Numbered from the stretch's first letter, positions 972-50,776 are shown. The stretch: 64,000 bases of DNA from Bacteroidota bacterium (GCA_030550395.1 JAUQPL010000002.1:188792-252791); one strand, 5' to 3'. The notes: generated from the letters alone by a model not told the origin. Numbers and translations are program-made.

Positions 972-2549
972 CTATGGGCGGGGCTCCAAGATTGCGACGG
1001 GAACGATCATCTCCTCCAGCGAGATTCCACCGTGCTGGAAGCTGTCTCGGTAGCGCTGGGCGTAGTAGTGGTAGTCGGTGGGGTAGACGAAGTAATAGTC
1101 CTCCTTGGCAATCAGCATGGTGGTGACGACGCTACTTCGGGGAAGCTGCCACTGCTGGGGATCGCGGAGCCGGACGACACCCCGGTCAGTTTCTGCGCGG
1201 ACATTGCGCCCTAGTTTGTACCGGAGGTTCGTAGTTGTTTCTCGGTCACCATAGGCTTTTAAGGGGCGCAAGCAGCGGATAGAACCGTGGTCCGTTGTGA
1301 TGATGATGATAGGTTTGGGGTCGGTAGTTGCCAGTGTTCGCAGGATGGAAAAAAGGTTGGAGTGCTGGAACCATGAACGTGTCAGCGCCCGGTAAGCAGC
1401 TTCATTGGGCACGATTTCGCGGAGAATGGGGACTTCCGAGCGGGAGTGCACGATCATGTCCACAGCGTTGACGACAATGGCAATAAGCCGGTGCCGGAGA
1501 TAGCGTCCGAGTTCCTGCTCTACTTTGCGTCCGAAAGCCGGGTCAATGATTTTGACATAGCTTATTCCTCCCGGAAGTTCTATCCGCCGACGCTGGAGAT
1601 AGGCTTCCAGGAGCTGCCGTTCGTATGCATTCTGGCTTTGCTCGTCATCGGTTTCGTTCCACCACTGGGGATAGTATTGGCGAATCTGGAGGGGAAACAA
1701 TCCAGCGAAGATGGCGTTCCGAGCATACATCGTTGCAGTCGGTAAGATTGAGCAGGCGTAATTGCGCTCAATGACATAGTAGGGATGGAGTAGCTCCTCT
1801 ATGGTAAGCCATTGGTCCAGCCGAAGGCAGTCAATGAGGATGAATACCAGCGGGCGTTCAGGGGACAGTCGCGGCAGAACGAAACGGTCTAAGACAAACG
1901 GGGAGAGGGTCGGGACATCGTCCCCGGTGGGGTTTTGAACCCAGTGCGCATAGGCATCTTCAATGAAGGTACCGAAAGCGGCATTGCATTCCCGCCATTG
2001 CGCTGCAAGGGTTTCCTGCAGCCCCAACTCTGGATGCTGTTCAATGTGCATACTCCAGGTAATCAGCTTCAAGTAGATGTCCAGCCAGTCGTACCAGGTC
2101 AGCGGCTCCTGAAGACGGCGGTTAATTGTGTAGAAGCCGTGGAGGTATTCCTGTGTCAGGCGCTGTCCCGTGATGCGCCGAGCCTCTACGAACTTCTTAC
2201 AAGCAGCCAGAATCTGTGTTGGATTGACGGGTTTGGTCAGATAATCATCAATCTTGCGCCCGATAGCTTCTTCCATGAGCGTTTCAGCTTCGTTTTTCGT
2301 GACCATAACTATGGGGATGTGCGGAGCGATCTCTTTGAGTACCTCCAGGGTTTCCAAGCCCGTCATGCCTATCATCATTTCGTCCAAGAAGATGAGATCG
2401 TACGAGCGCTGCTGTACGAGCTCAATGGCATCTTCGCCAGAGGTGGAAGTATCAACGGTATAGCCGTGTTGGCGGAGTAAAAGTAGATGCGGATGGAGGA
2501 GTTCAATTTCGTCGTCCACCCAAAGGATTGTACCACGGCAAGGTTGCAT
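972..2549 (-). CDS. porX: PorX-type response regulator with PglZ (alkaline phosphatase superfamily) domain
   Basis: This 525-residue protein has an N-terminal receiver domain (about 5-125) with the acidic pair D12-D13, phospho-acceptor D56 in LIFLDEMM and the conserved K of YLTKP. A linker is followed by a PglZ domain whose metal-site motifs include ILIDCLR (D240) and TTDHGS (D420-H421). The C-terminus carries the block around TTTNLRYKLGRN and FQHGGISLEEMIVPV that is typical of PorX. In Bacteroidota, PorX with the kinase PorY controls T9SS genes, and the PglZ domain is reported to have phosphodiesterase activity. I chose ATG 2549 because the receiver starts there; an upstream extension to 2636 lacks family similarity. 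It heads a unit with tsaE and an aminotransferase. No porY is visible next to it. Confidence 0.93.
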   Translation of the reverse strand: MQPCRGTILWVDDEIELLHPHLLLLRQHGYTVDTSTSGEDAIELVQQRSYDLIFLDEMMIGMTGLETLEVLKEIAPHIPIVMVTKNEAETLMEEAIGRKIDDYLTKPVNPTQILAACKKFVEARRITGQRLTQEYLHGFYTINRRLQEPLTWYDWLDIYLKLITWSMHIEQHPELGLQETLAAQWRECNAAFGTFIEDAYAHWVQNPTGDDVPTLSPFVLDRFVLPRLSPERPLVFILIDCLRLDQWLTIEELLHPYYVIERNYACSILPTATMYARNAIFAGLFPLQIRQYYPQWWNETDDEQSQNAYERQLLEAYLQRRRIELPGGISYVKIIDPAFGRKVEQELGRYLRHRLIAIVVNAVDMIVHSRSEVPILREIVPNEAAYRALTRSWFQHSNLFSILRTLATTDPKPIIIITTDHGSIRCLRPLKAYGDRETTTNLRYKLGRNVRAETDRGVVRLRDPQQWQLPRSSVVTTMLIAKEDYYFVYPTDYHYYAQRYRDSFQHGGISLEEMIVPVAILEPRP

Positions 2550-2651
2550 GGGGGCGACCCTTAAGAGGAAACCTGTCAAGCGAGAGCGGAGACGAATGAA
2601 AGTAGTTCCGATTACCGCAATTGTGGTGCCAACCACTAAGGGCGGATTTTG

Positions 2652-8049: not shown

Positions 8050-10242
8050 ATGTCCTCGGGATTACAAACGCATAGAGTTCTCTTGGAGCAGCTCAGCCTT
8101 GCTCCGCTACGGTTGTGGCACTTCCGGGTCATTTATCCTGCGGTTGTTGTCTTTCTCCTATTGATTGGAGCGACAATTGCGCTATGGTGGCTCATCCTTA
8201 TGCAGATCCGAGCGGAACGGGAGGCAATCTTTGAGCGGGCGGTGTCTTCGGTGGTCAATCGTCTGGAGAGTCATGTTCAACAGCATGAACAGATACTGCA
8301 ATCGGTCCAGGGGCTTTATGGCGGTTTCGTCCAGGTAGTTCGGGATGTCTTTGAGCTCTATGCCACGGTGCCGGTGCGGAACAACACGGCGGTGCTCTCT
8401 ATTGCCTATGCACCCTGTGTGCAGAGCTCCCGGCTCGGTTCGTATCTTCACTATGCTCGCTCGGAGCGGTATTGGGATTATCGGCTATTTCCTGAAGCGA
8501 CGCAGCCACATTTGTTCCCCTTGTTGTACGTGGTTCCACCACAGGAAGCTCTGCAGCGGACAGGGTGGAATGCTATGGTTGATCCAGTATGGCGTGAAGC
8601 AATTGAGCGGGCATATCAGCAAAATGCGCTGACGGCGACCCCATGGATTCCACTTCGTACAGCGCCGGATACGGTTTGGGGTGTTGCTCTTATCGCTCCG
8701 GTCTACCGTATGCATCCGCATCCCTTTAGCGAGCTACGGGTAGGAGAGCGATTCGTTGAGGGGATTGTCTTGATGGAGATAGCGGGACATCGCCTCTTCC
8801 AGCAAGCATTGGCAACAGCAGCACCGACGGATTCTCTGATTGCCTTTGAGGGTTTTGATGTCCAGCCTGCTCCTGGAGGTGGTGTACGTCATGTTCGGAT
8901 AATGGTTTCCCCGAACTGGCAGGAGGCTTCTTGGCGGGAGCCCGCCCTGCAAACAGAGAGGGCTCTGCGGATTGGAGATCGTAGCTTCTTCTTCCGCTTT
9001 GCCACAGTTCCCCAGTTTGAAGGAAGATTCCAGCGATGGCTTCCCTGGCTTGTGCTGGGTGGGGGTGTCCTTACCAGCTTTGTTGCCTTTGGTTTTGTGC
9101 TCTCATTAGTCACAACCCGGTCTCGGGCATTAGCATTAGCCGATCAGATGACACGGGCACAGCGCCGCATCCTTCTTGCTTCACATGACATCATCGCTGT
9201 CTGGGAGCTGGACGGGCGCTGGCGGACGGCTAACCCGGCGGCAGCATCCCTTTTAGGCTATGAACCCGACGGGCTTGCTGGTCAACCGGTTGAGGCTCTT
9301 GTTGCTCCCGGTGAACGGGAGGCTTTCCGCCATCGGTTAGCTACTCTACCGGATGAGGAGGCGGTCCTTGTAGAGTTGCCAATGCAAACGGCGACTGGAC
9401 AGCTGCGGTGGATCGGCTGGAGTTTGACGCTATCGCGCAGAGATGGTGCCATCTACGCTATAGGGCGGGATGTGACGGCACAAAAAGAGCTGCAGAAGCA
9501 GCAAGAGTTGGCCCGACGTCAATTACTGCTGGCGGAGCAGTGGGCACTGGAAGCCAACGAATTCAAAACAGAGTTCCTCAGCCGCCTTAGTTTTCAACTC
9601 CGTAATGGGTTAACGGGTCTTATGGGATTTACCGAGCTGCTTGCACGGGAGCGGGGTGCCTCTGAGGAGGAGCGTCAAGGCTACATTGCTGCTATCCAGG
9701 AGAGTGCGGAGTACCTTTTGAGTTTAGTGGCAGAGACACCGGAGGTTGCTGCTGTTGCAACTTTGGAGCGGCGTCCGGTGCCGCTTGTCCCTTTGCTTAC
9801 AGAGCTTGCCTCTTGGGCTGAACGTCACGGCCAGCAGCTTGTGCTGCCATCTCTTGAGGATGAGGCACATGTTGTTGCCGATGAAGGACTGCTCAGTAAA
9901 GCCTTACAGGCACTGCTCCAGGGATTGGCCAGTGCTGGTATTAAGGGTACAATCCACTTGCGTTTGGAGTTCAACTATACCGAAGGGGGGTCAGAGTGGA
10001 GCGTGAGTGTACCGGCCACGGATAAGCTCTGCCGGATTGCTACGCTTTTGAGGGACTACCCGCCATTGCAAGCACTCCGTCTGGATGACAGTGAAGCAAT
10101 GTTTGCTTTCCTCTTGGCGCAGGCTTTCTTACGACGGCTACGGGGGGAACTCCGGGCAGAGTGTGTGGAAAATTCCTTCGTCGTGCTGTTCACCTTGCCG
10201 ACGCAGCAGCCATTGCCGACAGCGGCGCTATCGTACGGCTAA
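8050..10242 (+). CDS. CHASE-PAS sensor with degenerate histidine-kinase module (probable pseudokinase)
   Basis: This 730-residue membrane protein has an N-terminal TM helix (about 25-52), a periplasmic CHASE-like domain (about 80-300), a second TM helix (about 333-355), a PAS domain (about 370-480) and a HisKA/HATPase-like region. The dimerisation helix reads FKTEFLSRLSFQLRNGLTGLMG, with F515 where kinases have the phosphorylated His (SHELR). The ATPase-like part retains the general fold pattern and a final LFTLP strand, but lacks the N-box asparagine and the DxGxG and GxGL glycine boxes. It should therefore bind a ligand outside the cell and signal allosterically or through a partner rather than autophosphorylate. 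It follows queC by 55 bases. An ordinary kinase with sequencing errors is unlikely because several motifs are changed independently. Confidence 0.8.
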   Translation: MSSGLQTHRVLLEQLSLAPLRLWHFRVIYPAVVVFLLLIGATIALWWLILMQIRAEREAIFERAVSSVVNRLESHVQQHEQILQSVQGLYGGFVQVVRDVFELYATVPVRNNTAVLSIAYAPCVQSSRLGSYLHYARSERYWDYRLFPEATQPHLFPLLYVVPPQEALQRTGWNAMVDPVWREAIERAYQQNALTATPWIPLRTAPDTVWGVALIAPVYRMHPHPFSELRVGERFVEGIVLMEIAGHRLFQQALATAAPTDSLIAFEGFDVQPAPGGGVRHVRIMVSPNWQEASWREPALQTERALRIGDRSFFFRFATVPQFEGRFQRWLPWLVLGGGVLTSFVAFGFVLSLVTTRSRALALADQMTRAQRRILLASHDIIAVWELDGRWRTANPAAASLLGYEPDGLAGQPVEALVAPGEREAFRHRLATLPDEEAVLVELPMQTATGQLRWIGWSLTLSRRDGAIYAIGRDVTAQKELQKQQELARRQLLLAEQWALEANEFKTEFLSRLSFQLRNGLTGLMGFTELLARERGASEEERQGYIAAIQESAEYLLSLVAETPEVAAVATLERRPVPLVPLLTELASWAERHGQQLVLPSLEDEAHVVADEGLLSKALQALLQGLASAGIKGTIHLRLEFNYTEGGSEWSVSVPATDKLCRIATLLRDYPPLQALRLDDSEAMFAFLLAQAFLRRLRGELRAECVENSFVVLFTLPTQQPLPTAALSYG

Positions 10243-10250
10243 GTGGACTG

Positions 10251-10258
10251 TATTTTTG
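10251..10258 (+). promoter_or_regulatory. -7 element TATTTTTG upstream of the OmpA-family gene
   Basis: This is an exact match to TAnnTTTG, nine bases after the stop of the pseudokinase gene and about 29 bases before the chosen ATG at 10287. It supports that start over a longer reading frame beginning at 10161, because transcription would begin at about 10264. The same octamer precedes several other genes here. Confidence 0.5.
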
Positions 10259-10286
10259 CCCCTCAGCATGTTGGAGGCTGTGGCAG

Positions 10287-12386
10287 ATGTCTTGTAGAGC
10301 TCTGTGGTTGATTGTACTGACAACCCCCGTAATTGTTGCGCAGCCGTTGCGACCACTAGCGCGAGTCGGTGTGTTCGCAGGATACGGGGCGAACTTGTAT
10401 ACAGCACAGTTCCGGCAATTGCCGGGTATTGCTAACTGCTGTCCCGGTTTTGATGGTGGACGCGGGACAGGTGTGATGACCAGCCTTATTGCTGAATACC
10501 CGTGGCTGCCATATGCGTGGCTTTCAGGGCAGCTGGGGTACGTGTCGCTGTCGGGCGAACTGGCAGAGCAGGAAGGTATTGGCAACGTTGCACTCATAGA
10601 CGCCCAGGGCGATACGGTAGTCCAGGAAGCAGAAGTAGAGCATGTTCTCCGAGCCTCCGTATCGGCCGCGGTTGCTGATATCGGCATTAGTTCCCGTTTC
10701 TTTGGCCGCTTCTCCATCCGCGTTGGAACAAACGTTGCTGTGCTTCTTTCTCGGCGATTCCGTCAATACGAGCAATTAGTGAGCCCGGAAGAGTTTGTCT
10801 TCGCTCGCGAAGGGAGCCGTCGGCGCAATGAGTATGAAGGGGATATCCCGAAGGCGCCGTTCGCTTTGCTGGGGGTGGGGTTCAGTGTTGGATATACACT
10901 TCCTATTGGCCGGACCTGGGAGTTAGTCCCAACGTTTCACTACACTTTTTCCTTGACTAACCTCAGCAGTGTGCCGTGGAAACCTTCGGCACTCCGATTG
11001 GGCATATCCATTCTCCGCACGCTCCTTCCACCGCCTGCCCCGATGCGGGATACGGTATACCGGAGAGACACGACGGTTATTGCCGTTGCTGGTTTGTCGC
11101 AAGAAGAGCTCGCTCTTGAGGGCCGCCAAATGCGAACGGATACTCTTGCTATTGGGGACCGTCCTCTATATCGGACCACTGTTGTGGAGCGGTGGCAGCG
11201 TCGGATTCCGAAGGTTTCCCTTCTCCGACCGACGGTACAGATTGTTCTGCCGGATACAGCCACCACGCTATTGGTGGAAGAGTTAGAACAGGAAGAAGCT
11301 TTCCCGCTATTGCCGTATGTCTTCTTCCCTGAAGGTTCGGCAGAGCTGGAGAGGACGCGAATGCATCTGCTAACGCCTGCGGAGGGGAAGAACTTCCGAA
11401 CAGAGACCCTCCCGATGCAAACGCTTCAGGTCTACTACCACCTCCTCAATATCGTGGGAGAGCGGCTTCAGCGTTTTCCGGCAGCGGAGTTGACCGTTAC
11501 GGGGTGTGTGAGTAATGTAGGGGTGGAGCTGGGAAATCGAGAGTTAGCACAACGTCGTGCAGAAGCGGTTCGGGATTACTTGATCCGTGTCTGGCGTATA
11601 GAGCCTCGGCGTATACGAGTGCAGGCGCGATTGTTACCCAGTGTTCCTTCAAATCCCGAAACCCCTGAGGGGCAAGAAGAGAATCGTCGTGTCGAGCTTT
11701 CCTCTTCTATCCCCGATATCCTTGCGCCTGTGTTTTTGACGGAGACAGGGTATGTTGTGACTCCAGAGACGCTCCTTGTGCGCAGCACGGTGGAGGCAGA
11801 GAACTCCATAGCATTATGGGAGCTGACGGTTTCCCACGGTGAGCACACACTTTTTTCCAAAGTTGGGACGGGGAGTCCACCACAGGAGGTAGCAGTATAT
11901 GCGGTACCAGCTATTCTCTCCCGAGGTGACTACCCAATTCGAGCAGAGCTTCGTGTCGTGGATGCTACGCACAACCAAGGGAAAGCCTCCTCTGAGCTTT
12001 CCTTCCGCCGCCTGAGCTTGCGACAGAAACGCTCCGAGCGCATAGGGAATGAACGACGCGAACGTTTTGCCCTAACCCTGTTCGAATATGATAAGGCAAC
12101 GCTTGCTCAGGAGCATCAACGAATCCTGTCGCTTGTTCGGCAGCGTATTCAGCCAAACACACGGGTTGTCATCAAAGGCTATACGGACCGAACGGGAGAT
12201 CCGGTCTATAACAGAAAGCTTGCCGAGCAGCGTTGCCGGAATGTGTGGCAAGGCTTGAATCTACGGGCTACAGTGCCAGAAATACACGCTATCGGGAGCG
12301 ATGTTCTGCTCTATCCCAATGAATTGCCCGAAGGGCGGGCGTATAGCCGAACAGTGCATATTGAGCTGATTACTCCAGTGGATTAG
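10287..12386 (+). CDS. Outer-membrane protein with N-terminal beta-rich region and two OmpA-like domains
   Basis: The 699-residue product has a signal peptide (MSCRALWLIVLTTPVIVAQ), then about 260 residues of alternating strands likely to form a barrel (VGVFAGYGANLY, FALLGVGFSVGYTLPI, LVPTFHYTFSL). A long linker follows, then two OmpA-like segments. The first is around VTGCVSNVGVELGNRELAQRRAEAVRDYLI; the second, at the C-terminus, contains VVIKGYTDRTGDPVYNRKLAEQRCRNV. OmpA domains bind peptidoglycan and tie the outer membrane to the wall; two per chain is uncommon. A GGAGG ribosome site lies about nine bases before ATG 10287 and a TATTTTTG promoter box lies just upstream. A structural role or a T9SS accessory role are both possible. 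Confidence 0.85.
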   Translation: MSCRALWLIVLTTPVIVAQPLRPLARVGVFAGYGANLYTAQFRQLPGIANCCPGFDGGRGTGVMTSLIAEYPWLPYAWLSGQLGYVSLSGELAEQEGIGNVALIDAQGDTVVQEAEVEHVLRASVSAAVADIGISSRFFGRFSIRVGTNVAVLLSRRFRQYEQLVSPEEFVFAREGSRRRNEYEGDIPKAPFALLGVGFSVGYTLPIGRTWELVPTFHYTFSLTNLSSVPWKPSALRLGISILRTLLPPPAPMRDTVYRRDTTVIAVAGLSQEELALEGRQMRTDTLAIGDRPLYRTTVVERWQRRIPKVSLLRPTVQIVLPDTATTLLVEELEQEEAFPLLPYVFFPEGSAELERTRMHLLTPAEGKNFRTETLPMQTLQVYYHLLNIVGERLQRFPAAELTVTGCVSNVGVELGNRELAQRRAEAVRDYLIRVWRIEPRRIRVQARLLPSVPSNPETPEGQEENRRVELSSSIPDILAPVFLTETGYVVTPETLLVRSTVEAENSIALWELTVSHGEHTLFSKVGTGSPPQEVAVYAVPAILSRGDYPIRAELRVVDATHNQGKASSELSFRRLSLRQKRSERIGNERRERFALTLFEYDKATLAQEHQRILSLVRQRIQPNTRVVIKGYTDRTGDPVYNRKLAEQRCRNVWQGLNLRATVPEIHAIGSDVLLYPNELPEGRAYSRTVHIELITPVD

Positions 12387-22012: not shown

Positions 22013-24346
22013 CTACGGTGTGCAACAGGGTGGTTTCCGGAGGAGGGGCCCTTGGTATTCAACGACGTCTGCGAAGACATCCAATCGCCGCACGACGTCC
22101 AAGTCGTAGTAGTCATCCTTTCGGTTCCGGTAACCCGGATTGCGCGAGATAAAGCGCAGGTCAGCGTAGCGTCCTTCTGCCAGCATGATGATCAGTGCCT
22201 CACGGGCACGGTGCAAGAACTCTTCGGGAGTTTTTACGTCCGTCGGTAGGAGAAGAAGTCCCTGCTGCCGAAGCCGGGCAAAGAGAGGATTCCGTTGGAG
22301 GCGCTGGAGGAGTTCTCGGTATCCGAAGTAGGCGCGGAGCTTGGAAAGCGTATCGTTGTCGACTCCGACAAGACTTGCTCCCGGGGGGATGACGACAGAG
22401 TAAACCTTCAGACTTGCAGTGGCGCTGTCGTACGAGCCGGCTATGTAGGCAATGGTGTCGTTACCGCGGTAGTCACCACGGATGATGGGCCGGAAGTCGC
22501 TGTATGCAGCTAAGGTGAGGATAAGTTTGGCCTGTCCCTGTCGGCGTTGGTTGTAATCCAGGAAGCGAGGCACAATGACATTGGTGATGCTGTCAGCGAG
22601 CAATTGTAGGTTCTGGTCAACGATACGCGCAAAGCTTGTGTATTCGCTGACTCGTTGCTCGTATCGGTGTTCCCGTCGCTGACGGAGGCTTTCAGGGTAG
22701 ACGAAGCGGTAGCCGAAGTACTGGTTGTCTGGGTGGAGCTCAATAAACCCAGCATCACGGTATTTGGGGGTCCGGAAGAGCTGGAGGTGACGCGGTAAAT
22801 TGGCCGAGGTGTTGACCTCCCAGAAGGCTGTCTGGTAGTAAGGAACGCTCCGTCGTAGTGGATCACGGAGAATTTCAGAGAAGACCCACGTGCACTGTGG
22901 GGGCTGGTACCATACGGGGCGGACCCAAATCGTGTCCCAGAGGACGGTATCGGCTGTGATACCTGTCAAGGTGAAAGCTCCAGAGTAGCTCCGCTGAGAG
23001 AGGCTAAGTTGTTGGCGGGTGGGAGTGCCACTGAGGTCGGTGTAGAAGACAAGTATTGGCTCTGGACGTTCGCAGGAGAGGGAATCGTAGAGAGAACCAC
23101 CGGCAATGCTGTAGGCTCGACCTTGTTGTAGCTCAAATGTCGCACGATGGCTGGTGCGTCGCTCCAACGTTTTTCCGTCGCTATCGCGGAGCTCAACAAC
23201 CGGTTGCAGAACCGGACGTTCGGGGCTTTCGGCGTCTAAGAGGACGACATGGTAAGTGACTCGTGGGGGGCGGCATTCCAAGGCAATGGGGAAGGCGTAA
23301 ATATCGGTTCCCCCTACATTTCGGATGCTCCGACCCTTTGGGTCCCCTGGACGAGGGAGGGTATCCCGATCAGAGGCAAAGAAGAGCCAGCGGAGCGAAT
23401 CCGCCGTGGCATGGGGGAAGGGCAGAGCGGGAGAAAGCTCAGCAAAGGGTGAGTTAATGGTGTCCTGTCCTTTCGGGAGGGCTTGGACAGAGCGGACAGC
23501 TATTCGCTGCTGGACGAAGTCTACATCTATCTGGGCAATGTAGAGGTCAAAGTCACCGGAGCGATTGCTGGAAAAGAGCAGACGGGGTTGGTATTCCATG
23601 CAGAACAGGAAGGGGAAGAGTTCTTGTGCCCGAGTATTAATGAGGTCCCCACCTGGCACTGTTGCTAGGTTCCGTGCCGGGGACCAGCGTCCGCCGATGC
23701 GGAAGGCGAAGTACAGATCAGCATTTCCCCAGAGGGTGTCACCGGAGGGGAGCAGAGTGAAGGCGTTTGCGAAGGGGCGACTCCAGCCTTGGTTCGGCGA
23801 TGGGCTGGGGACTGCTCGATCGGAGGCGAAAATGAGAAGGATAGAATCGCCTCGGACACCGACGGTGGGCTGGGCATCCCAGGCAGGGGAGTTGATGCTA
23901 TCTCCTAAAGGGAACGCGTGCCAGCGGTTTGCGAAGGTGAAGCCAAAAAGGTCCATGCCTCCGGTCATACCAGATTCGGGGGTAATCCAACGCTGGGCTG
24001 CTGCGATGCCTTCGGTCGGGGAGATAAAAGCGGCTGTTCCCTCGTTGGCAGGAAGGCTTGTCAACCAGCGCCCGAATCCAGAGCTGTCCAAAAGAGGGGG
24101 ACGCGTGTGTAAGTGCCCTGCTTCAACATTGATACTGGCAACCCAAAGGTCTTCCGAGCCGCGACGGTTGGAGGTAAAGAAGATTTCATTCGGCGCTGTA
24201 GGACGGAAACTCGGTGCAAAGTCTTCGGTCGTGGAGTTAAGCACCTCAATGTTCCCACGAGGGCGCTCTACTGTTGTCCGTTGCGTTGCACAGCTCCACC
24301 AGAGCATAGCGGAACAGATGAATACAGTGGGCAGCATTCCTCTCAT
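22013..24346 (-). CDS. PorE-like lipoprotein: PD40 beta-propeller, carboxypeptidase-regulatory-like fold and divergent OmpA-type C-terminus
   Basis: The product has about 777 residues, with a lipoprotein signal ending LWWSC. PD40/WD-like repeats fill about 30-380 (IFFTSNRRGSEDLWV, LLFSSNRSGDFDLYIA, LFFASDRD...GGTDIYAF). A CarboxypepD-regulatory-like segment follows (about 385-445, VVELRDSDGKTLERR). A C-terminal region with LTLAAYSDFRP, DTLSKLRAYFGYRELLQ and VVRRLDVFAD looks like a stretched OmpA_C domain. The order propeller, CRD, OmpA is that of PorE, an outer-membrane-associated T9SS component. The start at 24346 gives an ATGA overlap with the upstream lipoprotein gene; ATG 24358 is possible. 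It ends a four-gene operon and converges with the giant cargo gene only 11 bases away. The PorE assignment is inferred from architecture. Confidence 0.65.
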   Translation of the reverse strand: MRGMLPTVFICSAMLWWSCATQRTTVERPRGNIEVLNSTTEDFAPSFRPTAPNEIFFTSNRRGSEDLWVASINVEAGHLHTRPPLLDSSGFGRWLTSLPANEGTAAFISPTEGIAAAQRWITPESGMTGGMDLFGFTFANRWHAFPLGDSINSPAWDAQPTVGVRGDSILLIFASDRAVPSPSPNQGWSRPFANAFTLLPSGDTLWGNADLYFAFRIGGRWSPARNLATVPGGDLINTRAQELFPFLFCMEYQPRLLFSSNRSGDFDLYIAQIDVDFVQQRIAVRSVQALPKGQDTINSPFAELSPALPFPHATADSLRWLFFASDRDTLPRPGDPKGRSIRNVGGTDIYAFPIALECRPPRVTYHVVLLDAESPERPVLQPVVELRDSDGKTLERRTSHRATFELQQGRAYSIAGGSLYDSLSCERPEPILVFYTDLSGTPTRQQLSLSQRSYSGAFTLTGITADTVLWDTIWVRPVWYQPPQCTWVFSEILRDPLRRSVPYYQTAFWEVNTSANLPRHLQLFRTPKYRDAGFIELHPDNQYFGYRFVYPESLRQRREHRYEQRVSEYTSFARIVDQNLQLLADSITNVIVPRFLDYNQRRQGQAKLILTLAAYSDFRPIIRGDYRGNDTIAYIAGSYDSATASLKVYSVVIPPGASLVGVDNDTLSKLRAYFGYRELLQRLQRNPLFARLRQQGLLLLPTDVKTPEEFLHRAREALIIMLAEGRYADLRFISRNPGYRNRKDDYYDLDVVRRLDVFADVVEYQGPLLRKPPCCTP

Positions 24347-25167
24347 GGCGCTTGACATCCCTCGGTTGTGGGCACTTGTGCGAACTTTATGGTCATCCGG
24401 TTGAGATTAGGTGGTAGGGTCCCGGGACGAATGTCCTCTATGAGGACAGCGAATTCAGACCCGTTCTTTGCTCGGTAGTAGTAGACCTCGCCGATTTGGA
24501 CGCGCACGTCAATGGCGGGCTCCAGAGCCGTGCGCAGCATTTCAAGGATCTCTGGGGGAGGCGAGACGCTTCCCGTTACATCATCACCTTGGGCATCCAG
24601 GATGCGGATACGGACATCGGGCAATTGCCGGGAATCTGGGATTCCTGCACCAGAGGGCGTTGCCCTGCGGGCAGCATCGTTGAACTGTTGGCGATGGCTC
24701 TGCAGGTAATTGACAAAGTCTTCAGCGCTGGCAGAAAATAAACGGTCCGACAGGGGGGGAGAGAGCTGTCCAGCAACCCGGATCCATGCTTGCGGGGGAT
24801 TCACCCTGGAGTCAACTTCTACCACCATCCAGTCCCCTCGCATGATCCAGTTCGGGGGACGGTCCGTGACGGCTTGTGCCGTGTAGGTTTGTCCATTGGC
24901 TTGAAAGGTTTGTTGCCCTACAACGAGAAGGTTACCGAAAGCAATCCGATCGTCGTTTGGCAAAGAGCCCGAGCTGGTCGGCTCTGAAGGAAATAGGAAG
25001 GTGTGGATAGAGTAGGTCGGCACAGGGGTATTCTGGACAGTGTTCCAGCGGGGGTCAAACTGCGTAATGGTGGCTTCGCGAACGCGGATGTCGTCAAAAA
25101 TCAGCTCAGGACAAGTACAGCCCCAGCTGAGAAATAGGGCAGCGCAGAGGAGCAGGACTGAAGCCAT
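24343..25167 (-). CDS. Lipoprotein of unknown function in the PorE-like operon
   Basis: This 274-residue protein has a lipoprotein signal peptide MASVLLLCAALFLSWGC. No domain is recognised. The mature protein is soluble-looking and beta-rich, with a helical stretch around AEDFVNYLQSHRQQFNDAARR, then VRIRILDAQGDDVTGSV and a final region VRVQIGEVYYYRAKNGSEFAVLIED. It lies between a barrel lipoprotein gene and the PorE-like gene; its stop overlaps the next start as ATGA. Its position suggests a periplasmic or outer-membrane partner of PorE-like and barrel proteins, but this is inference. Confidence 0.65.
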   Translation of the reverse strand: MASVLLLCAALFLSWGCTCPELIFDDIRVREATITQFDPRWNTVQNTPVPTYSIHTFLFPSEPTSSGSLPNDDRIAFGNLLVVGQQTFQANGQTYTAQAVTDRPPNWIMRGDWMVVEVDSRVNPPQAWIRVAGQLSPPLSDRLFSASAEDFVNYLQSHRQQFNDAARRATPSGAGIPDSRQLPDVRIRILDAQGDDVTGSVSPPPEILEMLRTALEPAIDVRVQIGEVYYYRAKNGSEFAVLIEDIRPGTLPPNLNRMTIKFAQVPTTEGCQAP

Positions 25168-25194
25168 TGCTACGAGCTCAGGTTGGGGGACATA

Positions 25195-26373
25195 TTAGAA
25201 TGTCAGGCCAGCCCGTAAAACCAGCATGGAAAGGCGGCGTGTAGAGGGAACGTTTTGAAATCCCAACAGCGCGGTTTCTTCTCCGACGGCGAAGGATCGC
25301 CAGCCAAGGTCCACACCAAAGTCCATCCATCGAGTCAGGGCGACTTCAGCGCCGATACCAATGCCCCAGCTCAGGGGTAGGCTAAAATCAACTTCCGGCA
25401 GGCGTCCAGAGGCTTCCAGTTGGCGGATAAAGCGGACGCAATCGCTACACTCCTGCTTCTGAGAAAGCCAGAAACGACCCATCCGTAATGTTAGCCGATC
25501 CAGATTCATGCCAAGCTGTCCATAAACAAATGGGCGAATACACTGCAGAAGGGGCTGCCCCGTACTGAGATCAACCCATTCCTCCTGATATGCTGTCATC
25601 TCCTCAGGGCAGTGCGGGATGCGGATTCGGACATACTGTTTCCGGCGACGGCTCACGGTTTCGTTCCCGAATTGATAGCGCACATAGAGGAGCGCTGCCG
25701 GACGGCGGAGGAGTTCGCTACGGAACGAATTATAAACAGGTAATCCCGAGTGGTACGCAATGCCAATGCCCCACTGGCGATAAGCTCCCAAGCGGAGCCC
25801 GGCGGCGACTTCGGCAGCATACCGCAGGCGTCCCTGCAGGCTGCTGCGGTTAGGAGCATCGGTGTAGGCAGCAGAGAGTCCCCGGAGTTCAAGGAAGTAC
25901 CACTGTGATGACCGTTCGGGACAGCGGAGACGGATTCCCGGAAGATCAATCCCCAGCGGTAGGCAATCGCAAGCCGCCGTGCGGACAGGGATGGTCCGTA
26001 TGGCGGGGATCCGTTCCGTGACAGCGTAAGTTTCCACGATATTCCAGCCACCGTATTGAGTCGTATCCAGTCCGAAGCGTCGGGCGATGTTCTGTAACTG
26101 CGATACGGGTATGGGTACTACGGGGGGTTCCTCTTCCGCTTTAGCGGAGATAGGGCGGAAGAAGAGCACTGTGTCATAGCCCCCACGTGAGTTCAAGCGG
26201 ATGTGGAGCTCCAGGGCTGTTCCCCGCAAGAAGTAGCCACCGTAAAGGGTATCCTCCAGGACATTCCGCCACTGCGGGACCATATCCGGACGGATCCGAA
26301 CGATGTCATCGGAAAGCGGGGGACGTGCGCAGCTGAGAAGGAGCAGAGCAGAACAAACAAGCCATGGTCTCAT
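25195..26373 (-). CDS. Outer-membrane beta-barrel lipoprotein, unknown function
   Basis: This 392-residue protein has a lipobox signal MRPWLVCSALLLLSC. The N-terminal part contains a cysteine cluster (ACDCLPLGIDLPGIRLRC). From about residue 165 a series of amphipathic strands follows (YAAEVAAGLRLGAYRQWGIGIAYHSG, AALLYVRYQFG, GIGIGAEVALTRWMDFGVDLGWRSF), and the protein ends in LRAGLTF with the C-terminal aromatic typical of barrels. A second Cys pair (QECSDC) lies in a loop. A lipidated barrel is unusual. The start at 26373 overlaps the upstream stop as ATGA. The gene belongs to the PorE-like operon. Confidence 0.68.
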   Translation of the reverse strand: MRPWLVCSALLLLSCARPPLSDDIVRIRPDMVPQWRNVLEDTLYGGYFLRGTALELHIRLNSRGGYDTVLFFRPISAKAEEEPPVVPIPVSQLQNIARRFGLDTTQYGGWNIVETYAVTERIPAIRTIPVRTAACDCLPLGIDLPGIRLRCPERSSQWYFLELRGLSAAYTDAPNRSSLQGRLRYAAEVAAGLRLGAYRQWGIGIAYHSGLPVYNSFRSELLRRPAALLYVRYQFGNETVSRRRKQYVRIRIPHCPEEMTAYQEEWVDLSTGQPLLQCIRPFVYGQLGMNLDRLTLRMGRFWLSQKQECSDCVRFIRQLEASGRLPEVDFSLPLSWGIGIGAEVALTRWMDFGVDLGWRSFAVGEETALLGFQNVPSTRRLSMLVLRAGLTF

Positions 26374-26924
26374 AGCCCGAACCGCAGATGCAGTCCAACA
26401 AGCCAACTCCGAATGACGGGACGAAGGTCGTCACGAAGCAGAACGTTCCATAAGGCATATTGTCCTGAGGCTTCCAGAAACCAAGAACAGCAAGGTTCGG
26501 AGAAGGGGAAGACGACACCGACTCCAATGAGGGTTCCAAGTCCTAAGGGAGAAGCAGCATCACGAGCATTTATTGCACCACCAAGGAGTCCGAGCTGGAC
26601 GTATAGAGGCATCTTCGTAGGATGCCATGGGAACGAGCGTATGGCAACTTCAGCAGCTGTGATTTCTTGATACTGGGGGGGCAACGGACGAGAATGGATC
26701 TTTGCTGTATCGCGCATGCGGAGCTGGTAATGATGAAGGGCTACCAATCCCCAGAGTTGGCAATATTGTCGTGAACCGAGAACGAGGCTTCCGCCATAGC
26801 CTAGACGCACTGCATCGCTAATTTCTCTGAAGGGCACCCACACGGTTCCGCCTGCGCCGAAGAAATGAAGTTGGGCTGTAGCCGCCATACTGCAACTGAT
26901 AAGAAACGCACATGTATACCGCAT
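26370..26924 (-). CDS. Small outer-membrane beta-barrel protein, first gene of the PorE-like operon
   Basis: This 184-residue protein has a signal peptide MRYTCAFLISCSMAATAQ and then short amphipathic strands with glycine-rich turns (LHFFGAGGTVWVPF, LGYGGSLVLGSRQY, YVQLGLLGGAI, TLIGVGVVFPF), ending VGLHLRFGL. This is an OmpW/OMP_b-brl-like small barrel of about eight strands. The start at ATG 26924 fits a promoter located at 26954-26984. It overlaps the next gene by ATGA, so four genes down to the PorE-like gene are likely translated in a coupled way. Confidence 0.7.
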   Translation of the reverse strand: MRYTCAFLISCSMAATAQLHFFGAGGTVWVPFREISDAVRLGYGGSLVLGSRQYCQLWGLVALHHYQLRMRDTAKIHSRPLPPQYQEITAAEVAIRSFPWHPTKMPLYVQLGLLGGAINARDAASPLGLGTLIGVGVVFPFSEPCCSWFLEASGQYALWNVLLRDDLRPVIRSWLVGLHLRFGL

Positions 26925-26953
26925 TGGTAGTGGAGTTCTGGTAAAACACGTTA

Positions 26954-26985
26954 CGAATTTACGAAACACAGCATGAATTTACAAG
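26954..26985 (-). promoter_or_regulatory. Promoter of the PorE-like operon (CTTG - 20 nt - TAAATTCG)
   Basis: On the minus strand, CTTG (26985-26982) and TAAATTCG (26961-26954) are 20 bases apart. That is the same spacing as in the HU promoter, with one mismatch to TAnnTTTG. The start would be near 26948, giving a leader of about 24 bases to ATG 26924. Confidence 0.5.
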
Positions 26986-32201: not shown

Positions 32202-35200
32202 TCATTGTTCCCCGGTTCCAATTGGTACTGGTATGATGCCACAGCCGGGAGGTATATGGCATTGGGCACAACCTGCTCCCATTCCTGTGTCTACGCAGTT
32301 GTCGCTGTTGTCAAGCTCGTGGAATGGAAATCGTGGAAGGATCCAAATGCTTGCCCCCTGGAATCCCGCTTCTGTGGGGACCGTAACAGAGATAGGGATG
32401 GAATGCCCAGTTCCCAGGGCCTTGGGCAAATACCACGGTGTCCGGCTTTCTATGATGGTCCCGGACATGTTCCTCCGTACGATAATCCAGAAGGGGGTGC
32501 CGGCAAGAAGCTTCGTTGGGCCGACGTTATGCAGGTGAACTGTGTATACGGTATGGGCACCAGGTATGCTTGGGTGGGCTTGTACTCCGTCAACTTCAGG
32601 AGCAGTGACGGAGGATTTCCACCTGACACGAGTAGAGAGGCCGAGCTGCCGTTCTTCCGCCGATGGGAATCGTATCCACGTCCAGCGGTCTACTTCTGAC
32701 GGTAACCCATCTAGCAATCGGTCCGCAGTGTCAGGGCGATTCGCTGCAGAGCCAGCTTTCTTGGCGTTGATGAGGGTGAAGGTGAAGGAGTTCGGAAGGA
32801 TAAAGTAGCCTCCCTCATTCGACACAACCCGTGGTTGTAGCTGGAGTGTATCCCATTGGAGTCGGACTCCGAAGGGGATTCCAGAAACCCATAAAGGAGT
32901 CACTCCTCGGATGAGTGTGGTAAGCGGGCCTCGCCACTCGTAGGTTCTCCCGGCACCATCGCGGATTCGGAGCCAAAGATCACGCCCGAACTGGAGCGGT
33001 ACCCACAGCTGTTCGGCTCCGTTGTGAGCGCTGTACAGGTGAATATCCCCAGGGGTGAACGTGAGAGAGGTGTTACGGAAGTGTTGGACAACTGACGACC
33101 GGATGATGAAAGTGAGACCTTCCACCGTGCCGGTAGTGAACTCAACAGTATCCCGGGAACGGGGGGTTACGGGCGATTGGGAACCGTCGGGATTACGTGC
33201 CCAGAAATCCGCTTCAACGATGAGTCGGTACCGTGTGTTAGGCATCAGGATGGTGGGGAAGACAACACCTCCGCGCTGCAACGTAGGACGGATTTCAAGA
33301 GTAGAGCTACCCGAGAGGTGTTGTCTGATATTGACCTGTCGCGGATTCCCCATACCGAGTTCTTGCAACTGAACGGACAGGTTGCGGAGTTGCCACTGGC
33401 GCAAACCATTTCCACCACTGCTCCACGACGTACCATCGGCAGGGGCCCCTAATTGTACTGAAAGAAGTTGCGTTACAGGCACCCCAGTCTGCCCACGTCC
33501 CGGTGTGGAGGAAGTGATAAGCGCCGGTGGTTGCTGTTCTGAAACATTCTGGTTTGTCCAGTTTTGAGCTTCGTTGAGGAGACTCGTGCACGAGAGCTGC
33601 TCGGCAACCGTGCCCAACGGGCCTCCTTTTTTGGCTCCTTCTCGGTTGTTGAAGCGCCCATATCCGTAGTAGCCGTATTGAGCAGAGATGGACGTCTCAT
33701 GGAGTTTCGGAAGGCAAACTTGACGGCCAGCAACGGTGAAGCAGGTCCGGGGGATGGTTATTTGCCCGTCGAAAATACCTCGTGCCTGGAGGGTAACAGA
33801 CACTTGACGGCACTTGACAGCTTCCTTGTCACACTTATCTTGCTTCCGGCAGTGGCGCCAATGCTGACTGAGGTCCACCCAATTCCCACTCCCACAGTAA
33901 AAGCCCTGCAAATGATCGGCAGCTTGAGTCCCTTTCCATCCCCACGAAAGAAAGCCTGACTGGTCAAAGTTCGCTGTCACCTCTAACGCCCCACCAAGCT
34001 TAGCCCGTGCAGTGTATTGGTTAGCGCTCCGCTGTATGCGGAAGAAGTAAAAGCCGCACAGCCCTAAGTTATAGCTCAGCGCAAAGTGGAAAGGAACAGT
34101 TCCGATTTTTGCCACCTGGAGTTTCACACCAACAACTCCAGCGCCGCCGAAGTTGTTTGTGAAGCTCCCCTCGGTAGGGCAGAGGCGGAGATATCCTGCT
34201 AGCTGCGCGTATGCTTTGGCTACGACCTCAATGCCAAGGATATCGGTTCCGACATTTGCGTCGAGATCGGCCAGAATCCATTGGCGCTGGAGGGGACCTA
34301 CTTGGAAGCATGAACCGCTACCAGGGGTAAAGGAGCTATTGAAACCGGCGGAAAACACCGGGATACGGAGCAAGCGTACTTCGGCGCCTCCGGAAAGGGA
34401 AATGGGTGGCTGGAGGCGTCCGTTAATGATGGAGACCGTTGCCGATGCGGTCCCTCTTACAAGGTTAAGGGCAGGTAGGATGACAATGCCACCGTCGATG
34501 CCAAGCTGCGTAGAGCTGCCGATGGCTACTGTTCCTGTGACGGTGAGCCGGTAGAATTGGAGCGAGGCATCAGCAAAGATAAGTCCACCGCGCAGAAGGA
34601 GGTTGCTCCCTGGGTCTGGGACCAAAGGAGGAGGGGGGACAATGCCGGATGCTTCGCTGATTTGAGAGTGGTTGACAGGGTCTAGCCGAACATGCCAGCC
34701 AGCACCAATAGTCCCACCAACCAGGTGGAATACACCGGGTACGATAGGAACCCCGCCAGGGACCACAGCAGCCCCTTGGATGAACCAAAACCGGTAAGCT
34801 GGGGTCCCTGCAGAACCAAGGGCAAAGTCCACCTGAGCTTCCAGCCCGCCCAGGCAGGTGAAGCGACCGCTGAGCGTGCCGCGCAGTCCTTGCGCCTGAA
34901 CCGAGCCACTACCCGAACCGTAGGTGATTGTTCCCCATTGAAGGTCTCCACGGATGGAGAATACCCCTGACACAGAGACGTCAACGCCTACGCCTTCGCT
35001 GCTTATACAAAGGTCGTCGTAAATCCGCAGACGGCGGACACGTACCCCGTTGCTTCCCCCAGGTAGACCAGAAGCGGCATCAATGCTGACACCGCCACTG
35101 ATACCGATCCACCATCGCTTCTTTGTCCCGCTGCATGAACCGGTTGGAAGATGATAGCCCAGGCCTACTTCTTGCGCCTGTACTGTAATGCCGGCAACGG

Positions 35201-37508
35201 TTAGGTTTGCCCAGCTCGCAACGTGAATCCACCCTTCAGCCCCTCCCAACTCAACACGCCCGTCATGCCAGATGCGCAGACCGTTGAATGCAAGGGAGTT
35301 GGAGCCATTGGCTGGCATAGTAAGGCGAATGTTCCCGAACTCTATGTAGCCCGAGCCTGGTCCAACCTTAACCAGCTGACCGTTCTGGAGGGTGAGGCGA
35401 GCAAAGGTACCGAAGTCAAGCTGGATGTGTCCGTAGATATCCAGCGAGCCTATCCAATTCCAACTGGCGTCACAGGTGAGCCGGAGGTAGAGGCTGTCTA
35501 ACTGTGCCCAGGTAGCAGGTTTGGACAGTGTGGAGGGAAGCAGGATAAGACCACGGAAGGCGAACTGGCTGAATGTTCCACGGCACCAGCGTGCATAGAC
35601 CGAATCCAATCGGACACGGAAGCCAGCCAAGCGGATGGTGTCGCCGGAGAAATTGCGAGCACTGAGGCTAAGCTTGAGTTGTCCACCAATGTCCTCGGCA
35701 ACCACGTGGTGGACCAGGAAAGTGGTTGTGTCGTTGTCTCCAATAGGAACGGAAAGCCGGACACTGGGAAGCCAGAGTCCGCGCCAATTAGGCGAGCTCC
35801 AGTCAGAGAAAGAGCAGGTCCCTGAGGGAGGGAACCCTGGAGGATTGGTATCGGAGGCAAGATCCAGTACAAGGGTGTCCAGGCTGATCCGGAGCGGGGT
35901 TCCTAAGATGCCGGTATTTCGGACGGGGGAGATAAGCGTTACCACGAAATCTGCTCCACCTCGGTCCAGCCGAAGGTAGAAGTATGCTGTCACCGGTGGA
36001 TTGAGGCAGGAAATCTGGAGCTGTCCGCCGAGCGTCAGATGACCGGTGAAGCTCCGAGGCGGTAGGGTATCAAAGCGAGCGTGGACGATTATGGAGTCAA
36101 ACTTCGCTTGAAAGCAGGAACCAAGGAGCATCCCCTCCCCACTGCAGTTCCACGCCGTAGGGAGTTTGATCCGGAGCGGTGGAAGACCGACCAAGGACAC
36201 AGGTTGCCAACCTAATTCTATGGAATCCACGGTCCGGCAACCGAAGTTCACACTGGACCAGTCTACCAGGGCGCGTGCTTTGGCCCGGGCTGTAGAGGGA
36301 GTGAATTCCCACTGGAGTATGCGCAGAACGTGATTGACCGCCGCCGCTCCTGAGCGGAGCAACCGTTCCTTGACCGCCGTGGTTATGATGGTTCCACTAC
36401 TGAGCTGAGGAATATTGGGAGGAGTGGGCACCGAGACAGTGATAGTGCCGAAGGGTGCAACAAGTGTATCGCCTAGCCACGGGATGAAGATGAAGCCTGT
36501 GTCAGGACCAATGGAGCAAGAGGTACCGATTTTGCAACGTATTGGTGTGTGCAGGCGCATGATGAAGCCGCCGCCTAAGCGGATGTGAGTGATGAAGACA
36601 GTGTCAGAGGATGGCTGATCAACGGTTCCTACTGTGCCAGGAGCTCTTCTCTCAGTTTCTGGCCGTTCTCTAGTGGGCGTGAGAGACGGAGGATAGAACA
36701 AAAAGATAGCGCTCTTCCCTTCGTTGCGGGCAGCAGGGCGTCCGTCTGGAGTGATGGCTTGCACCTGCCAGACGAAGGCTTCTGCATCGGGATAGAGCGA
36801 GAATGGCGGAGCAGTGGGAAGGTATTGCCAGGCTGTCGTGGTGAGCGTCTGCTCTACGACCGGAGGATTTCGTTCTAAGGCAGAGCGACGGTCTTGGCGG
36901 GGATAGAGAGGGGCTATCCGGAGGCGGTAGAGGACAGAACCAAGCATGGGTTGGGCCGGGGCCCATGTGAAAAGAGGAGTTGTGGTTGACAGACGCGAAG
37001 AATCTGCTGGGCTCAGCAGAACGGGGGGATCAGGTGTCGCAAGAGAGGTCGTCGGACAAAGGACACCGGTAGCAGCAATGGGGCGAAGGTATTGGTCGTA
37101 GAGCTGAGTGCAGAACTCGTAGCGCCCTTCGGGAAGAAAGCCCGTTGCTGCAGTTTGTGCCTCAATGCTGGGGTCAATGTACACCGCTTGCTGGTGAACG
37201 ATGTCGCGTCCTGTTAGGACAAGCGTTGCTGGTCCAGCGGGGATATTGATGCGAGGTTGCTGGGGGTGTCCATTTTTGGAACGGGCGATAATCCGGCTGG
37301 TTTGGATATCCCGGAGTTCAAAGCCCACAATGCTCTGCGGATACGCTGGAGTTCCGGGAGGTGCCGTGATAATAATGCGGATGAGGGTTGGGTCTTCCTG
37401 CCAAGCCGAAATCGCTGCTGGCAGAGGTTCGCGCAAGACAACAGAAACCTGAACTTGAGCGACAAGGCTGTAAGTAAAAAAGCTGGTGACGAGGACTGTC
37501 CAGCGCAT
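32202..37508 (-). CDS. Giant secreted protein (1768 aa), TANFOR-like, unknown function
   Basis: The product has a signal peptide (MRWTVLVTSFFTYSLVAQ). An N-terminal segment reads VVLREPLPAAISAWQEDPTLIRIIITAP, with a short FN3-like region at about 160-270 (PVLLSPADSSRLSTTTPLFTWAP). A very long beta-rich middle (about 300-1250) is full of glycine-rich strands such as LTVAGITVQAQEVGLGYHL, with regularly placed cysteines. An Ig-like/CARDB-type segment lies near 1640-1740, and the tail is Cys-rich. It resembles the Bacteroidota TANFOR-type proteins in overall plan, but I cannot confirm that. There is no T9SS sorting domain at the end. It forms an operon with the FN3 gene. A TATTTTTG box at 37609-37616 may drive it. 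Confidence 0.72.
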   Translation of the reverse strand: MRWTVLVTSFFTYSLVAQVQVSVVLREPLPAAISAWQEDPTLIRIIITAPPGTPAYPQSIVGFELRDIQTSRIIARSKNGHPQQPRINIPAGPATLVLTGRDIVHQQAVYIDPSIEAQTAATGFLPEGRYEFCTQLYDQYLRPIAATGVLCPTTSLATPDPPVLLSPADSSRLSTTTPLFTWAPAQPMLGSVLYRLRIAPLYPRQDRRSALERNPPVVEQTLTTTAWQYLPTAPPFSLYPDAEAFVWQVQAITPDGRPAARNEGKSAIFLFYPPSLTPTRERPETERRAPGTVGTVDQPSSDTVFITHIRLGGGFIMRLHTPIRCKIGTSCSIGPDTGFIFIPWLGDTLVAPFGTITVSVPTPPNIPQLSSGTIITTAVKERLLRSGAAAVNHVLRILQWEFTPSTARAKARALVDWSSVNFGCRTVDSIELGWQPVSLVGLPPLRIKLPTAWNCSGEGMLLGSCFQAKFDSIIVHARFDTLPPRSFTGHLTLGGQLQISCLNPPVTAYFYLRLDRGGADFVVTLISPVRNTGILGTPLRISLDTLVLDLASDTNPPGFPPSGTCSFSDWSSPNWRGLWLPSVRLSVPIGDNDTTTFLVHHVVAEDIGGQLKLSLSARNFSGDTIRLAGFRVRLDSVYARWCRGTFSQFAFRGLILLPSTLSKPATWAQLDSLYLRLTCDASWNWIGSLDIYGHIQLDFGTFARLTLQNGQLVKVGPGSGYIEFGNIRLTMPANGSNSLAFNGLRIWHDGRVELGGAEGWIHVASWANLTVAGITVQAQEVGLGYHLPTGSCSGTKKRWWIGISGGVSIDAASGLPGGSNGVRVRRLRIYDDLCISSEGVGVDVSVSGVFSIRGDLQWGTITYGSGSGSVQAQGLRGTLSGRFTCLGGLEAQVDFALGSAGTPAYRFWFIQGAAVVPGGVPIVPGVFHLVGGTIGAGWHVRLDPVNHSQISEASGIVPPPPLVPDPGSNLLLRGGLIFADASLQFYRLTVTGTVAIGSSTQLGIDGGIVILPALNLVRGTASATVSIINGRLQPPISLSGGAEVRLLRIPVFSAGFNSSFTPGSGSCFQVGPLQRQWILADLDANVGTDILGIEVVAKAYAQLAGYLRLCPTEGSFTNNFGGAGVVGVKLQVAKIGTVPFHFALSYNLGLCGFYFFRIQRSANQYTARAKLGGALEVTANFDQSGFLSWGWKGTQAADHLQGFYCGSGNWVDLSQHWRHCRKQDKCDKEAVKCRQVSVTLQARGIFDGQITIPRTCFTVAGRQVCLPKLHETSISAQYGYYGYGRFNNREGAKKGGPLGTVAEQLSCTSLLNEAQNWTNQNVSEQQPPALITSSTPGRGQTGVPVTQLLSVQLGAPADGTSWSSGGNGLRQWQLRNLSVQLQELGMGNPRQVNIRQHLSGSSTLEIRPTLQRGGVVFPTILMPNTRYRLIVEADFWARNPDGSQSPVTPRSRDTVEFTTGTVEGLTFIIRSSVVQHFRNTSLTFTPGDIHLYSAHNGAEQLWVPLQFGRDLWLRIRDGAGRTYEWRGPLTTLIRGVTPLWVSGIPFGVRLQWDTLQLQPRVVSNEGGYFILPNSFTFTLINAKKAGSAANRPDTADRLLDGLPSEVDRWTWIRFPSAEERQLGLSTRVRWKSSVTAPEVDGVQAHPSIPGAHTVYTVHLHNVGPTKLLAGTPFWIIVRRNMSGTIIESRTPWYLPKALGTGHSIPISVTVPTEAGFQGASIWILPRFPFHELDNSDNCVDTGMGAGCAQCHIPPGCGIIPVPIGTGEQ

Positions 37509-48373: not shown

Positions 48374-49786
48374 ATGAGCTTGCGTGCCCTCCAGATTGTC
48401 CGCAGTGGTTTGCTTGCGCACCAAGGAGCGATTGATATCACCAGTGGGAACGTTGCCAATGTCAATACCCCAGGCTATACGCGCCGGCGTCCTCATCTGA
48501 GCACGTTCGTTCCGGAGCCTGGACATACCGGCTCAGGGGTGCAAATCAGCACACTGGTGGAGTTCCGGAATCGCTACTTGGATGCCCAGATCCGTGGCGT
48601 CCTTACCCGTCAGCTTGGACGTCAGACCGATGAACTGCTTCTGCAGAGATTAATGGCTCTGTTTGGGGACTCTACCGAGGGAGGGGTCTCTGCCCTTTTC
48701 CAACGCTTTTTTGATGCTGTGCAGCAGGTAGTTCTGCAACCAGAGGACGTAGCTCTGCGGGAGCTTGTACTCCAACGTGCCGATCAATTGGCGTCAACAT
48801 TCCGGCGCCTGGGTGCGGATATTGAGGCGGTGCGCTCGGAGCTTCTCGGGCAAGCACAGCAGCGGGTTGGTGAACTCAACCGTCTGCTACACCAAGTAGC
48901 CCACCTCAATGCCCAGCGAGCGCTCGTTCCTGAAGGAAGCGAAGCAGCGATAGCGCTTGCCGATGAGCAGACCCGATTAGTGGAACAGATTGCTCGCCTT
49001 ATTCCAGTGACGGCGACTGTGGATGCTCGCGGGATGATCAATCTTGCGGTCGCAGGGCATATGCTTGTATCGGGTGTCGCGGTGCTGTCCTTACAGCTTC
49101 GGACTTTGACCACCGCCGCTGGGGAGCATCATGCACAGCTGTGGCTCCATTCCCCTGCGGGGGAAGCAGAGACGGAGCTTTCGTTAGACGATGGTGAGCT
49201 GGGAAGGCTGCTGGAGCACTACAATGTCACCTTGGACCCGCAGGAGCGGAGCGCTGCTTTCTCCCTCCCCCGTCAGCTCGATCGCTTTGTTGCCCAGTGG
49301 GTGGAGCGTGTCAATGGCATTTTCTCCGGTGGTTATGGATTAGATGACGGAGCGGCTCCACCCCCTGGGCGGCGCTTCTTTGAAGGAACGAGGGCTGCGA
49401 CGCTTCGCCTTTCGGCAGATGTAGCAGCTCGTCCGCGGGCGCTCCCTTTGTCCGACAAGCCTGGTGAGCCGGGCAATGCCGTGATTGCTCAGCGGCTTCT
49501 CGCCTTGGCTGAGCTCCCAATCTTCGGGGATGGGCAGACTCCCCAGGGGTTTATAGCAGGGGTGATGTCCTGTTTGGGTGAGCTCCTTTCGGCTGCTCAG
49601 CAGCAGCGCGAATGGCTGCAGGCAAGTTTCCAGCAGCTACAGGCACAACGGCAGATGCTGTCCGGGGTTAATCTGGATGAGGAGGCCGCCAACCTGGTTC
49701 GGTACCAGAAAGCCTACGAAGCGGTTGCCCGTGTTGGGACAGTAGCGGCCTCACTGTTGGAGACACTCATCCGTATGGGAACGTAG
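48374..49786 (+). CDS. flgK: Flagellar hook-associated protein 1 FlgK
   Basis: This 470-residue protein has the rod/hook N-terminal motif SLRALQIVRSGLLAHQGAIDITSGNVANVNTPGYTRR and the C-terminal VNLDEEAANLVRYQKAYEAVARVGTVAASLLETLI, which pair as a coiled coil in the assembled junction. FlgK joins hook to filament outside the cell after export by the flagellar type III system. It is shorter than the roughly 550-residue enterobacterial protein, suggesting a reduced outer domain. It is followed by flgL after 13 bases. Confidence 0.95.
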   Translation: MSLRALQIVRSGLLAHQGAIDITSGNVANVNTPGYTRRRPHLSTFVPEPGHTGSGVQISTLVEFRNRYLDAQIRGVLTRQLGRQTDELLLQRLMALFGDSTEGGVSALFQRFFDAVQQVVLQPEDVALRELVLQRADQLASTFRRLGADIEAVRSELLGQAQQRVGELNRLLHQVAHLNAQRALVPEGSEAAIALADEQTRLVEQIARLIPVTATVDARGMINLAVAGHMLVSGVAVLSLQLRTLTTAAGEHHAQLWLHSPAGEAETELSLDDGELGRLLEHYNVTLDPQERSAAFSLPRQLDRFVAQWVERVNGIFSGGYGLDDGAAPPPGRRFFEGTRAATLRLSADVAARPRALPLSDKPGEPGNAVIAQRLLALAELPIFGDGQTPQGFIAGVMSCLGELLSAAQQQREWLQASFQQLQAQRQMLSGVNLDEEAANLVRYQKAYEAVARVGTVAASLLETLIRMGT

Positions 49787-49799
49787 GCGGGAGAAGGCT

Positions 49800-50768: not shown

Positions 50769-50776
50769 GGGGTGGC

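Follow-up and report, generated by a model that had tools for sequence, protein, structure and literature searches.

The locus described here lies in a 64,000-nt stretch of DNA, referred to as the window, from the 1.94-Mb genome of a Kapaibacteriales-type Bacteroidota bacterium (G000). Homology searches turned up HRbin21 and Candidatus Kapaibacterium SKYG35 among its named relatives. Four genes, g1 to g4, follow one another on the minus strand. The first, g1 (26370..26924), encodes a 184-aa protein with an ordinary signal peptide and an invariant cysteine, Cys55, which Pfam OMP_b-brl and the homologue alignment predict to be a small outer-membrane beta-barrel. g2 (25195..26373) encodes a 392-aa lipoprotein, for which AF2, Foldseek, VIA, and the alignment indicate an N-terminal domain (residues ~23-130), a CxC linker, and a C-terminal 8-stranded barrel (159-391). 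The product of g3 (24343..25167) is a 274-aa lipoprotein without a known family, and its alignment contains the lipobox cysteine, Cys17, and a conserved VREATITxF motif. g4 (22013..24346) encodes a 777-aa lipoprotein that was divided, using AF2, Foldseek, VIA, and hhalign, into a propeller (~25-360), one or more beta domains (361-480), a helix (552-601), a putative OmpA-like domain interrupted by a beta hairpin, and a C-terminal tail with twin cysteines.

The spacing of the genes is that of an earlier sequence-only reading, which had described two ATGA overlaps and one 27-base gap. g1 ends at 26370 and the ATG of g2 is at 26373; 27 bases separate the end of g2 (25195) from the start of g3 (25167); g3 runs to 24343, past the first base of g4 at 24346. 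The ORF of g1 extends upstream to a GTG at 26969. The start of g1 is most likely the ATG at 26924, not 26985, since the former lines up with the signal peptides of the homologues. Promoter and terminator scans gave counts near chance. A lipobox-like cysteine is kept in 19/20 homologues of g2, 18/18 of g3, and 18/22 of g4.

g1 had been read as a barrel and g2 as a barrel lipoprotein, and both assignments held up. Pfam OMP_b-brl matches 9 of the 19 g1 homologues (best E 3.6e-6), and g1 is predicted to be a small barrel of the 8-stranded type. The AF2 model of g2 (pLDDT 73.5) contains a barrel of eight strands, mostly scoring above 80, with lower confidence for the N-terminal domain. This barrel matches OmpA, NspA, and OmpW in Foldseek (best E ~2e-6) and 8-stranded barrels in VIA (Z 13-16). 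In both g1 and g2 the last barrel strand forms the C-terminus, with no tail after it. Two known barrels of the type IX secretion system (T9SS) were considered and rejected for g1 and g2: PorP, given no match to Pfam PorP_SprF (PF11751) and the 8-stranded barrel of g2, and PorG, given no PF19573 (DUF6089) match in G000 and no cysteines on a C-terminal tail. An apparent fusion of g1 and g2 in one relative (G001), hinted at by ORF length, was an artefact of ORF calling.

Neither g2 nor g3 matched a Pfam family in the window, and nothing convincing was found over the homologues of either, in agreement with the earlier statement that the two middle genes have no recognized family. When the g3 profile was searched among 395 Bacteroidota genomes, matches were found solely within the order.

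g4 had been assigned the domain order of PorE, namely a beta-propeller followed by CarboxypepD-like and OmpA-like domains. The propeller is well supported. In the AF2 model (mean pLDDT 84.3), residues 25-360 form a five-bladed propeller that matches TolB and GH43 in Foldseek and GH43/GH32-type hydrolases in VIA (Z ~17-18). The GH43 and GH32 hydrolases are five-bladed propellers. A PD40 match was obtained in 10/22 g4 homologues. The beta domain or domains at 361-480 follow in the model, at the CarboxypepD-like position, with no Pfam match. The N-terminal TPR domain of PorE has no counterpart in g4, since the model runs from the signal peptide and lipobox directly into propeller strands and Pfam finds no TPR. 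After the 50-residue helix, the last domain is modelled as strand, inserted hairpin, helix, strand, and strand. Foldseek and VIA lists for whole g4 were filled by the propeller and are uninformative on this domain.

Whether the last domain is OmpA-like was therefore addressed through sequence comparison. A direct profile match, whose failure the sequence-only reading had named as grounds for refutation, was not obtained: Pfam OmpA was found in 0/22 g4 homologues at E <=0.1, a PDB sequence search found no OmpA in g4, and hhalign gave no significant match between the intact g4 C-terminus and OmpA. G000 holds 17 other places that match Pfam OmpA, and g4 is not among them. With the 39-residue insert excised, hhalign of the g4 C-terminus against 19 OmpA domains of the order gave a short match with E 0.004 and a score of 23.2, compared to scores of 16.3 or less in 100 column shuffles of the same comparison. 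Only an intermediate family rescued the assignment. Its members (L036, L037, and L038, in G014, G017, and G028) are stand-alone lipoproteins of ~600 aa with a PD40 propeller and an insertion-split OmpA-like domain missed by Pfam. hhalign connects the g4 domain to this family with a probability of 98 and E 4e-14, and the family to OmpA with E 1.8e-4 and a modest probability of 48. The C-terminal domain of these proteins is homologous to that of g4 and is interrupted at the same site by a shorter insertion; they differ from g4 in lying outside the cluster, in genomes that do not have it, and in having no twin-cysteine tail.

Conserved residues point in the same direction. D617, N664, and R671 are invariant in 22/22 g4 homologues. 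In the crystal structure of PorE, the side chains of D576, N584, and R591 hold peptidoglycan (PMC7192894). The three g4 residues are the counterparts of these positions, and the spacing from N to R is 7 in both proteins. They lie in a segment encoded at 22334..22498 on the minus strand, in which the 39-residue insertion separates D from N. We infer that the last domain of g4 is a remote, insertion-split relative of OmpA that probably still binds the cell wall. Three points argue against a wall anchor: the insertion falls between D and N, where it might distort the pocket; no g4 homologue matches Pfam OmpA; and the link from the intermediate family to OmpA is modest. Of the proposed PorE order, the propeller is clear and a beta domain comes after it, and the OmpA-like end holds by way of the intermediate family and the three residues. 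Elsewhere in the window, at 10161-12386 on the plus strand, a 741-aa protein with two OmpA domains adjoins a CHASE-PAS histidine kinase gene (8050-10242).

Invariant cysteines are found in both g2 and g4. The g4 tail has cysteines at both columns in 22/22 homologues, arranged as CC or CGC in 20/22, that is, adjacent or one residue apart; in g4 itself they are C774 and C775, encoded at 22022..22027 on the minus strand. The linker before the g2 barrel carries an invariant CxC (C135 and C137), which is predicted to be periplasmic if the lipid anchor sits in the inner leaflet. C151 and C278 of g2 lie just before two upward strands in the model and may pair. Two g4 homologues (L063 and L064) extend ~100 residues further at the C-terminus, beyond the twin cysteines, with no Pfam match in this extension; a SPOR-like identity for these tails was considered and found to have no Pfam support.

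The distribution of the cluster was surveyed in 61 Kapaibacteriales-type genomes of the order, with separate searches for homologues of g4, g2, and g3 and an additional profile search for g2. Of these, 27/61 genomes carry the cluster, or pieces of it where a contig ends, a recurrence beyond chance, and the linkage is retained in many families of the order. Nineteen genomes (G000, 17 relatives, and the named contig L043) have g1-g2-g3-g4 on a single strand, in each case closely spaced or with brief overlaps. Five genomes of two families, f4 and f5, have g1-g2-g4 adjacent with no g3 gene found (L049-L052 and L143), so g3 is dispensable there. The linkage of the barrels and the lipoprotein to the PorE-like gene is therefore conserved in full in 18 further genomes and without g3 in five more. 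The sole exception seen was G007, in which g4 is on another contig, away from the end of that contig and from g1-g2-g3. Since the flanking genes vary from family to family, the unit appears to be the four genes.

The clearest view of the cluster as a unit comes from a genus-mate, G003, a genome that is 100% complete. In G003 the two flanks are directly joined and all four genes are gone together, while the flank genes, which encode a PPIC isomerase, a presumed Hsp33-type protein, and ASH-repeat and Ig-repeat proteins, are 65-81% identical to those of G000. The cluster has thus been lost or gained en bloc. Pairwise identities among g1 to g4 correlate at 0.89-0.94, which is consistent with co-inheritance, though these values also reflect common species history. 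Presence of the module is patchy, and one family, f9, sits at two places in the tree of the cluster, so that its history includes loss, transfer, or both. Genomes with the module have a smaller median size (2.5 Mb, against 3.4 Mb for those without; Mann-Whitney p 0.002, relatedness uncorrected). Together, the conserved gene order, the confinement of g3 to the order, and the loss or gain as a block bear out the earlier description of a lineage-specific outer-membrane module. Also in the window, a 1768-aa protein with no Pfam match is encoded at 32202-37508 on the minus strand, beside a 706-aa fn3 protein, and G003 keeps a partial homologue of it.

With moderate confidence, we interpret the four genes as one operon for an accessory outer-membrane complex that is anchored to peptidoglycan and is not required for T9SS secretion. 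g1 and g2 would be small barrels in the outer membrane, where g2, g3, and g4 would be held by their N-terminal lipids. g4 would extend into the periplasm, its propeller binding partner proteins and its OmpA-like domain gripping the stem peptide of the cell wall, which would fix the complex in place. The invariant cysteines, which would lie on flexible periplasmic segments (CxC of g2 and CC of g4), may covalently link these two proteins. The likely role of such a complex is to present or retain something on the outside of the cell, or to brace the envelope. The dispensability of g3 in two families and the separate contig of g4 in G007 count against a single complex.

A narrower form of this explanation is a generic envelope brace like OmpA or Pal, which would tie the outer membrane to the wall without any cargo. 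Like OmpA and OprF, the module combines an 8-stranded barrel with an OmpA-like, probably wall-binding domain, and a CHU_0125-type OmpA protein supports envelope integrity, as judged from its NCBIfam name. Unlike in OmpA and OprF, the barrel and the OmpA-like domain are on separate proteins, and a propeller and lipid anchors are added. A brace alone seems redundant in a genome with 17 other OmpA-domain matches, the patchy presence of the module suggests a special rather than a housekeeping role, and the propeller and g3 are left unexplained. We consider a simple brace rather unlikely.

The sequence-only reading had proposed a T9SS outer-membrane module or a related export device, partly because the window encodes PorX. 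This regulator is indeed present, as a response regulator with a PglZ domain (972-2636, minus strand), and other T9SS genes of G000 include SprA and a PorV/PorQ-family protein above cut-off. On one form of this reading, the module would be a lineage-specific T9SS part that is anchored to the wall and docks one class of T9SS cargo, with the new barrels replacing PorP. Flavobacterium encodes PorE homologues in the same operons as SprF-like shuttles and type B substrates, which the PorE homologues are proposed to anchor statically to the wall (PMC9143113, PMC12618676). The F. johnsoniae operons resemble the module in that a barrel of the outer membrane is encoded together with a PorE-like lipoprotein that would anchor to the wall. 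SprA is present wherever the module is, and known T9SS partners are scarce in the order, with PorP_SprF reaching its cut-off in only 2/61 genomes and PorG (DUF6089) in 0 of the 61. Judging from these profiles, T9SS partners in the order are very divergent or replaced. G000, which bears T9SS genes, also encodes, within the window (48374-51583, plus strand), flagellar hook-filament proteins (FlgK and a flagellin-N/FlgL type) and MotA.

The distribution of the module does not follow that of the T9SS, however. SprA is in 61/61 genomes of the order compared to 27 with the module, and G003 keeps SprA and both large surface-type neighbors, with the ASH and Ig repeats, yet has no cluster. Unlike the F. 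johnsoniae operons, the cluster lacks both a PorP_SprF-family barrel and a gene for CTD cargo, and no cargo gene is tied to it across families. A far better candidate for PorE is found elsewhere in G000. This PD40-CarboxypepD-OmpA protein (G000:C1:9719-11383) scores 205.9 bits over nearly 400 residues against NCBIfam T9SS_PorE (NF052230), below the cut-off of 600, and g4 scores 19.3 bits over 35 residues (33-67). The candidate gene overlaps an upstream gene for a 287-aa barrel-like protein (G000:C1:9719-12086; L089:5720-8087). The proposal of a T9SS module was thus not upheld; on profile matches and gene distribution, the module is not a core part of the T9SS, and a docking platform for T9SS cargo is unlikely.

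Compared to PorE of P. gingivalis, g4 is likewise a lipoprotein with a five-bladed propeller, then a beta domain, and a C-terminal OmpA-like domain with the same D, N, and R. It differs in having no TPR, in its insertion and lack of a Pfam OmpA match, in its invariant twin-cysteine tail, and in its companions, which are two barrels of the 8-stranded type and an unclassified lipoprotein. By analogy, our best reading is that the module works in a manner resembling PorE-type anchors but would not be the PorE component.

The twin cysteines raise a further question. SprF and PorG have twin cysteines in periplasmic C-terminal tails that form disulfides with Cys343 of GldK (PMC12635249). The module is similar in placing twin cysteines on a flexible periplasmic segment, and PorG is also 8-stranded; it differs in that the cysteines are on the g4 tail and the pre-barrel linker of g2 rather than on a barrel tail. 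Searches of the order found no protein above the GldK cut-off. The best match in G000 is an FGE-like lipoprotein with 86 of the 350 bits needed, and no GldKLMN locus was found near it. As a convincing GldK was not found, a bond between g2 and g4 is the simpler guess. It is improbable, in our view, that the cysteines mark an outer-membrane machine in which the barrel lipoprotein and the PorE-like anchor are covalently joined to each other, or to a moving track, and act with the order-specific lipoprotein in a transport or display function of no known system. A module that moves at the surface, as opposed to a static anchor, is very improbable; in it, the g4 tail, with the CxC of g2, would couple the complex by disulfides to a moving GldK-type track. 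The precedent of SprF and PorG, the prevalence of CC or CGC in g4, and the absence of the tail from the stand-alone relatives speak for it, but no GldK above cut-off is found in the order, a wall-binding domain beside the tail argues against movement, and the twin cysteines may bond inside the module.

The preferred reading, an accessory complex anchored to the wall, would mean that an operon has come to combine PorE-like wall anchors with small barrels of another kind, without type IX cargo. The setting is an order in which SprA is universal but PorP and PorG are scarcely detectable. Two uncharacterized protein families gain a physical context, and one genus, with genomes that have the module and genomes that do not, offers a clear test case.
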